Below are positions 37,904-40,000 of a DNA stretch of 64,000 bases, in pieces (positions within the stretch are counted from its first letter, which is position 1; the number at the start of each line of letters is the position of its first letter). The translations under genes and the position numbers were made by a program. Origin of the DNA: Nitratireductor pacificus pht-3B. Its GTDB lineage: Bacteria > Pseudomonadota > Alphaproteobacteria > Rhizobiales > Rhizobiaceae. The notes below the pieces were generated by a model. It was not told where the DNA came from. It saw only the letters and a program-made list of their open reading frames with translations, and ran no database searches. The stretch is taken from the NCBI RefSeq assembly GCF_000300335.1, contig NZ_AMRM01000016.1:1-64000 (forward strand). The letters are read 5' to 3'.

Positions 37904-40000
37904 ATGCGGCTATATTCCAATCGCGACCGGCCGAACCATCTGGGTCCGCTGGCGCTGGAGCGTCTGGCACGGGTGGACGATGTCGTCGCGCAGCCGGCCC
38001 GCCAGCCGGAGGACGGGTTTGCGGCGTCGGAAGATTCCCTTCTCGGCGATGTCGAGGAATATGCGCGGCTTTTCACGCGTTTTCTGGACGGACCCGTTGC
38101 GCCGCTCGGCGACGCCATCCCCGACGATCCGGCGCGGCGTGCGGAGAACCTGAAGGCTTCGGCCTATTTCCTCGACGCTTCGATGGTCGGCATCTGCCGG
38201 CTCGATCCGGACGACCGGGCCGGGGACTGCGACCCGTCGCACACCCACGCGCTGGTCTTTGCCGTCCAGTTCGGCCGCGAGCCCGAGGCGGGGGAGGCCG
38301 GCGCCGAATGGATCCGGGGGACCAATGCGGCGCGGACGGACATGCGCTGCGCCGAGATCGCGGCAATCCTGTCGGGCTATGTGCGCTGGATGGGGTTTCC
38401 GGCGCGCGGGCATTTTTCCGGCGATGCGCAGGTCGATCTTGCCCGTCTGGCGGTGCGGGCGGGGCTTGCGCGCGTGGTGGACGGTGTGCTTGTCGCCCCG
38501 TTCCTCAGGCGCGGCTTCCGCCTTGGCGTCGTGACCACCGGCTACGCGCTCGCCGCCGACCGGCCGCTGGCCCCGGAGGGCGATCTCGGCGAGACCGCGC
38601 CGGAGGTGATGCTCGGCATCGACGGGACGCGCCCCGGCTGGGAGGACGCGGAAGAGGAGAAGCGGCCGCTGCATATGGGGCGCTATCCCATGGAGACGAT
38701 CCGCCGGGTCGATGAACCGACGACGCTGGTGGTGCGGCAGGAAATCCAGCGGGTCGCCAAGCGCGGCGATTTCTTCAAGCGCGCCGAAGCCGGCGATCTC
38801 GGAGAAAAGGCGAAGCAGGAGAAGAAGCGTTTCCCCATGAAGCACCCTCTGGCGCTCGGCATGCAGCCGCTGATCCAGAACATGGTGCCGCTTCAGGGGA
38901 CGCGTGAAAAACTCGCGCCGACCGGCAAGGGCGGCGATCTTTCCGATCCGGGGCGCAATGCCGAGGCGATCAAGGCGCTCGGCTACTATCTCGGGGCGGA
39001 TTTCGTCGGCATCTGCCGCGCCGAGCCGTGGATGTACTACGCCAGCGATGAGGTCGAGGGCAAACCCATCGAGGCCTATCACGATTATGCCGTCGTCATG
39101 CTCATCGACCAGGGCTACGAGACGATGGAGGGCGCGTCCGGCGACGACTGGATCTCCGCCTCGCAGTCGATGCGCGCCTATATGCGGGGCGCCGAGATCG
39201 CCGGGGTGATGGCCGCCCATTGCCGCAGGATGGGCTATTCGGCCCGCTCCCATTCCAACGCCCATTCCGAGGTGATCCACAATCCGGCGATCCTGATGGC
39301 CGGCCTCGGCGAGGTGTCGCGCATCGGCGACACGCTGCTGAACCCGTTCATCGGGCCGCGCTCGAAGTCCATCGTCTTCACCACCGACCTGCCGATGAGC
39401 GTCGACCGGCCGATCGATTTCGGCTTGCAGGATTTCTGCAACCAGTGCCGGAAATGCGCCCGCGAATGCCCGTGCAACGCCATCTCTTTCGGCGACAAGG
39501 TGATGTTCAACGGCTACGAGATCTGGAAGGCCGACGTCGAGAAATGCACGAAGTACCGCGTCACCCAGATGAAGGGATCGGCCTGCGGGCGCTGCATGAA
39601 AATGTGCCCGTGGAACCGCGAGGACACGGTCGAGGGGCGACGACTTGCCGAACTGTCGATCAAGGTGCCGGAGGCCCGCGCGGCGATCATCGCCATGGAC
39701 GATGCGCTGCAGAACGGCAAGCGCAACCTGATCAAGCGCTGGTGGTTCGATCTGGAGGTCATCGACGGGGTCGCCGGCGCGCCGCGCATGGGCACCAATG
39801 AACGCGACCTCAGTCCCGACCGCGGCGACAAGATCGGGGCCAACCAGAAGCTCGCCATGTATCCGCCGCGCCTCCAGCCGCCGCCGGGCACGACCCTCGA
39901 CGCGGTGCTGCCGGTCGATCGCAGCGGCGGGTTGGCCGAATACGCCGCCGCTGAAACGCCGGCCGCCGCCCGGGCGCGGCTCAAGTCCAGCGCAGGCTGA
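37904..40000 (+). CDS. rdhA: Respiration-independent (catabolic) reductive dehalogenase, NpRdhA/BhbA type
   Basis: This 698-residue corrinoid iron-sulphur enzyme should remove halogens from halogenated hydroxy-aromatics in the cytoplasm: there is no Tat signal and no membrane-anchor gene. The catalytic residues described for Nitratireductor pacificus NpRdhA occur at identical positions: Y426, K488 and R552. Cluster ligands are C512/C515/C518/C522, and C548, C561, C564 and C568. Residues about 85-225 are a degenerate copy of the B12-binding region 345-500, as in NpRdhA. Unlike Comamonas BhbA, no reductase domain is fused; separate reductase and ferredoxin genes follow. AGGGAGAGG precedes the ATG. 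Confidence 0.93.

Follow-up and report, generated by a model that had tools for sequence, protein, structure and literature searches.

A reductive dehalogenase gene of Nitratireductor pacificus pht-3B encodes the known enzyme NpRdhA, in a probably catabolic gene order kept in its closest relatives and with one-module relatives in uncultured Alphaproteobacteria

PceA, a respiratory reductive dehalogenase (RdhA), is exported by the Tat route and has a membrane partner. RdhAs have been divided into four subfamilies, and a duplicated, vestigial cobalamin module is described as the mark of the catabolic ones, PceA being dimeric and without this duplication; the vestigial-module interface mimics the respiratory dimer, and in the published account NpRdhA of Nitratireductor pacificus pht-3B is therefore a monomer (PMC10463259). 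Comamonas BhbA and Jhaorihella JtRdhA resemble NpRdhA, by description, in their duplicated cobalamin module and lack of a Tat signal, and Y426, K488 and R552 are reported for JtRdhA (PMC10463259); both carry a fused phthalate-dioxygenase-reductase domain which NpRdhA does not have, its gene being followed by separate ferredoxin-NADP reductase (FNR) and ferredoxin genes, already published as the NpRdhA gene cluster (PMC10463259). For NpRdhA, cobalamin binding, dehalogenation of ortho-halophenols, activity with 3,5-dibromo-4-hydroxybenzoate, substrate complexes and a K488Q variant are in print, with structures 6ZXU, 6ZXX, 6ZY1 and 6ZY0 (the last being K488Q); K488, R552 and S422 are placed at the substrate hydroxyl, with Y426 as proton donor (PMC7565698).

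The window is the whole stretch of 64,000 nucleotides that was analysed, and the gene under study is located in it as follows:

37904-40000, + strand: rdhA, encoding NpRdhA; ATG start, 698 aa; matches PDB 4ras and 6zxu at 698/698

A PDB sequence search with the rdhA product matched five distinct sequences. Chains 4ras_A and 6zxu_A were identical to it at 698/698 positions (1611 bits), 6zy0 was also among the matches, and two PceA-type tetrachloroethene dehalogenases were matched at about 83 bits (E 1e-22). The "reductive dehalogenase" profile TIGR02486 (NCBIfam) scored 171.8 bits (cut-off 160.35). The sequence shows a genuine gene, read correctly, whose product equals NpRdhA in every residue and is no new enzyme; the complete identity and the TIGR02486 score above cut-off exclude chance for this reading. 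No difference was found from NpRdhA of pht-3B, represented in the PDB by 4ras, which we take to be its first structure, 6zxu, 6zxx, 6zy1 and, as the K488Q variant, 6zy0. The earlier note had classified the protein as an aerobic, cytoplasmic, B12-dependent catabolic RdhA of the NpRdhA/BhbA group; this is correct, the protein being NpRdhA itself. It overlooked that the product is the reference protein, and the novelty that it implied for the dehalogenase does not stand, the protein having been crystallised and its 3,5-dibromo-4-hydroxybenzoate assay published. The finding is already known, as both structure and mechanism of NpRdhA have been published.

Read directly, residue 426 is Y, 488 is K and 552 is R, with S422 also present, and in the alignment to NpRdhA (698/698 identical) these residues coincide with the published active site. 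The agreement with the reported numbering, noticed earlier from the letters, arises because the window's protein is NpRdhA. Its 14 cysteines include 512/515/518/522 and 548/561/564/568, the two clusters that had been announced, and two 4Fe-4S motifs were found at residues 512-568. The vestigial module (residues ~58-222) aligned with the catalytic module (~333-504) at 34% identity over 174 aa (E 3e-24).

Relatives were collected in one scan of genome contigs with NpRdhA as sole query, which gave 70 loci; the "small group" of the earlier note is somewhat understated in size. Some RdhA match at E ≤0.001, many of them weak, was obtained in 26 of 60 related genomes. S422, Y426, K488, R552 and the eight cluster cysteines were identical in 69/69 aligned relatives (67 of the 70 loci plus two paralogues, L069, L074 and L075 being left out for ORFs of less than 400 aa). 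These paralogues are two more RdhAs of the strain's own genome, L002 (contig C1, ~164525-166729) and L003 (contig C4, ~230955-233174), with 47% and 44% identity, open frames of 1120 and 1094 aa, and proteins of 1111 and 1089 aa. After the Fe-S region each has a reductase-like C-terminal part, with a match to DmmA-like_N that passes the cut-off in L002 and falls short of it in L003, and a 2Fe-2S domain at the C-terminus. This fits the reductase-fused form already described, and a published tree includes RdhA2 and RdhA3 of N. pacificus (PMC10463259). Clustering of stop-to-stop ORFs around the loci was noisy, the largest groups looking like rdhA shadow frames, and the statements on neighbours below rest on targeted searches, save for an indolepyruvate-oxidoreductase lead.

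The genes considered around rdhA are the following:

24533-26369, + strand: TRAP transporter DctQ (24533-25051) and DctM (25068-26366), from domain scan
31009-32694, + strand: FAD-dependent monooxygenase, PRK08132 family; NF006002 510 bits (cut-off 416), FAD_binding_3
32891-33841, + strand: metallo-beta-lactamase (MBL)-fold hydrolase; Lactamase_B; kept in L006, L007 and L008
33838-34920, + strand: TRAP transporter solute-binding protein DctP; DctP domain; match in L006 and L008, none in L007
35005-35979, + strand: fumarylacetoacetate-hydrolase (FAH) family enzyme; FAA_hydrolase and FAA_hydro_N_2; PDB 3lzk 391 bits; kept in L006, L007 and L008
36027-36863, + strand: LuxR-type regulator; GerE domain; kept in L006, L007 and L008
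36851-37825, - strand: LysR-type regulator, divergent; HTH_1 and LysR_substrate; beside rdhA in L006, L007 and L008
40026-41057, + strand: TrxR-type FNR, 343 aa; Pyr_redox_2, no CxxC; PDB best match 5ygq, a ferredoxin-NADP reductase (462 bits)
41054-41365, + strand: [2Fe-2S] ferredoxin, adrenodoxin/putidaredoxin type; Fer2; PDB ferredoxins and putidaredoxin, best 3hui (85 bits); cysteines 38, 41, 42, 44, 47 and 84
41375-41698, + strand: seven-iron ferredoxin FdxA; NF045490 147 bits (cut-off 135); PDB 7Fe ferredoxin I

The order monooxygenase-MBL-FAH-LuxR-LysR-rdhA was found in three of the 70 loci, L006 (N. soli), L007 (a MAG) and L008 (Rhodoplanes serenus), all close relatives; an RdhA at 91% is encoded in genome G003, by its coordinates probably that N. 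soli assembly. The monooxygenase, which is related to MhpA-type aromatic hydroxylases, is present in all three, in L006 and L008 truncated where the locus stops. In the closest relatives rdhA thus stays with the catabolic genes, and its redox partners differ from one to the next. Also encoded upstream are a class II aldolase, a ketopantoate-reductase-like protein, a VOC protein, a GST and a class I fumarase-like protein. From the family names we infer a catabolic role for the upstream island (24533-35979, TRAP transporter and catabolic set), whose part from 31 kb on is order-conserved in N. soli and Rhodoplanes. The true start of the LysR-type regulator may fall inside the listed ORF. A palindrome-like inverted pair GCCGTATGG ... 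CCATATGGC (37790-37823, arms at 37790 and 37815), lying between this regulator gene and rdhA, was examined as a possible LysR box and rejected, since the upstream regions aligned from L006, L007 and L008 do not retain it. On the other side, 41965-48000 holds a copper amine oxidase, an aldehyde dehydrogenase, AraC and LysR regulators and a VOC protein, the first two of which are also found in N. soli (L006).

Two other identities were weighed for the rdhA product. One is QueG (epoxyqueuosine reductase), a sister enzyme that also uses cobalamin and Fe-S clusters; a top match to it had been named in the earlier note as a refuting outcome. Its profile TIGR00276 hits the product only weakly, over residues 483-577, at 22 bits where the cut-off is 200. 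Contig C40 of this genome encodes a genuine QueG (465 bits), and the product is wholly identical to NpRdhA; the QueG reading is refuted and keeps practically no probability. An energy-conserving respiratory RdhA would belong to the same superfamily, and PceA in the PDB is matched at E 1e-22, over residues 436-613, with the cobalamin/2x[4Fe-4S] core in common. Against this reading, the N-terminus and neighbours scanned showed neither Tat signal nor RdhB anchor: no RR pair occurs in the first 60 residues (a sequence check rather than a dedicated signal-peptide predictor), no transmembrane-like stretch was seen (top 19-mer 1.45, Kyte-Doolittle), and no RdhB-like anchor family was found among nine other neighbour proteins scanned (one of which, 33838-34980 on the - strand, was a wrong-strand frame) or among 20 further ones scanned for domains. 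This agrees with the absence of Tat signal and anchor gene observed earlier. NpRdhA also has the duplicated vestigial module, described as a catabolic mark (PMC10463259), and soluble NADPH-type redox partners are encoded downstream. The respiratory reading was accordingly rejected as highly improbable.

A different question concerns the electron donor, since the adjacent FNR and ferredoxins might not be the true donors and NpRdhA might receive electrons from another cellular reductase. In-vitro reconstitution with the cognate redox proteins reportedly failed, and E. coli flavodoxin reductase is described as working with NpRdhA (PMC10463259). All three electron-transfer genes were found near rdhA in only two of the 70 loci (L006 and L017), bearing in mind that six loci end within 1 kb after rdhA, so that absence cannot be read from them. 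L007 has a 56-residue FNR match and the 2Fe-2S ferredoxin near rdhA, and none of the three lies beside rdhA in the L008 flank, where the catabolic genes are retained; that genome encodes an FNR (63%) elsewhere. The L007 remnant (8004-8171, between rdhA and the 2Fe-2S ferredoxin) may reflect a deletion or an assembly gap. A search of 11 whole genomes gave best FNR matches of 90% (L006), 67% (L017), 63% (L008), 44-53% in six others, and 28% and 33% in L015 and L018. Elsewhere in the strain's own genome, another FdxA, at 58%, and a relative of the 2Fe-2S ferredoxin, at 56%, are encoded, which also favours another donor. On the other hand, no second close FNR was found in this genome (next match 30%), the FNR and ferredoxin genes follow rdhA on the same strand in an operon-like placement, and in Noviherbaspirillum (L017) all three, in another arrangement, also neighbour rdhA, suggesting that they are functionally linked. 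A donor elsewhere in the cell is considered unlikely, with a share of probability that is not negligible. The upstream catabolic and regulator order is kept and the electron-transfer genes are not, and the redox partners of NpRdhA therefore look replaceable; a path through the neighbouring FNR and ferredoxins is itself doubtful, because the cognate reconstitution reportedly failed and redox genes are seldom kept near rdhA.

With great confidence, the rdhA product is regarded as a cytoplasmic, oxygen-tolerant, cobalamin/2x[4Fe-4S] ortho-halophenol dehalogenase, which would serve a local catabolic set and have probable but replaceable neighbour redox partners. In the published mechanism, the substrate halogen ligates Co(II), an electron comes in via the Fe-S clusters, Y426, with K488, gives the proton, and K488, R552 and S422 hold the phenolic oxygen. 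In the cell NpRdhA would serve a local set made up of TRAP uptake, the FAD monooxygenase and the FAH-family and MBL-fold hydrolases, under the LysR and LuxR regulators, with electrons probably passing from NADPH to the adjacent FNR and through one or both ferredoxins to NpRdhA.

Outside the window, 18 alphaproteobacterial relatives of about 450 aa have no duplicated N-terminal module, with active site and cysteine motifs intact (L053, L055, L056, L057, L058, L059, L061-L068 and L070-L073, from uncultured Alphaproteobacteria), the one in L055 lying at 5995-7344; L044 was counted as two-module, as a separate N-terminal frame precedes its 446-aa frame. Both halves of NpRdhA aligned to the single module in six of six such relatives tested. 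No hydrophobic 19-mer above 1.32 was seen in the 17 tested, and no RR-x-F/L near the N-terminus, where L062, L063 and L065 were read from over-extended frames and L062 and L065 then re-read. Two trees were built and disagree. In the first, with QueG as sole outgroup (its branch ~10 changes per column), the one-module forms made up a single clade nested within the two-module rows. The second, of the catalytic module with seven RdhA-like outgroup rows on branches that were also long (up to 6.65), grouped the 57 two-module rows in one clade (100/99) and left the 17 one-module rows outside, a placement that tentatively fits a pre-duplication form. Both trees were computed without L069, L074 and L075; the first also omitted L083-L085 (minus-strand matches), and the second L057 (frame over-extended upstream), L087 (QueG) and L085 (QueG-like).

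In L053, L055 and L059, the one-module rdhA is followed after ~0.9-1.4 kb by an indolepyruvate:ferredoxin-oxidoreductase-like gene, and a fourth gene of this group is in L012, 2.2 kb from a two-module rdhA on the other strand. The only copy scanned for domains is:

L055, 8267-11785: indolepyruvate:ferredoxin-oxidoreductase-like gene; domains POR and TPP

It is a possible low-potential electron source for one-module RdhAs. That these proteins are surviving pre-duplication forms, predicted homodimers that would represent the dimer-to-monomer step and a fifth domain architecture, three of them near a possible electron-source gene, is proposed at slightly under an even chance. No description of one-module catabolic RdhAs was found in titles and abstract openings of the open-licence papers searched.

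As a soluble model of B12-dependent dehalogenation that tolerates oxygen, NpRdhA is already established. Its native electron path and natural substrate could still matter, and the conserved gene order makes both testable; the substrate of the 24533-35979 island could hint at the natural one. Beside the already known enzyme, the one-module relatives are a lead of moderate interest: if they are pre-duplication forms, they could account for the way in which internal duplication turned a dimeric enzyme into a monomer.
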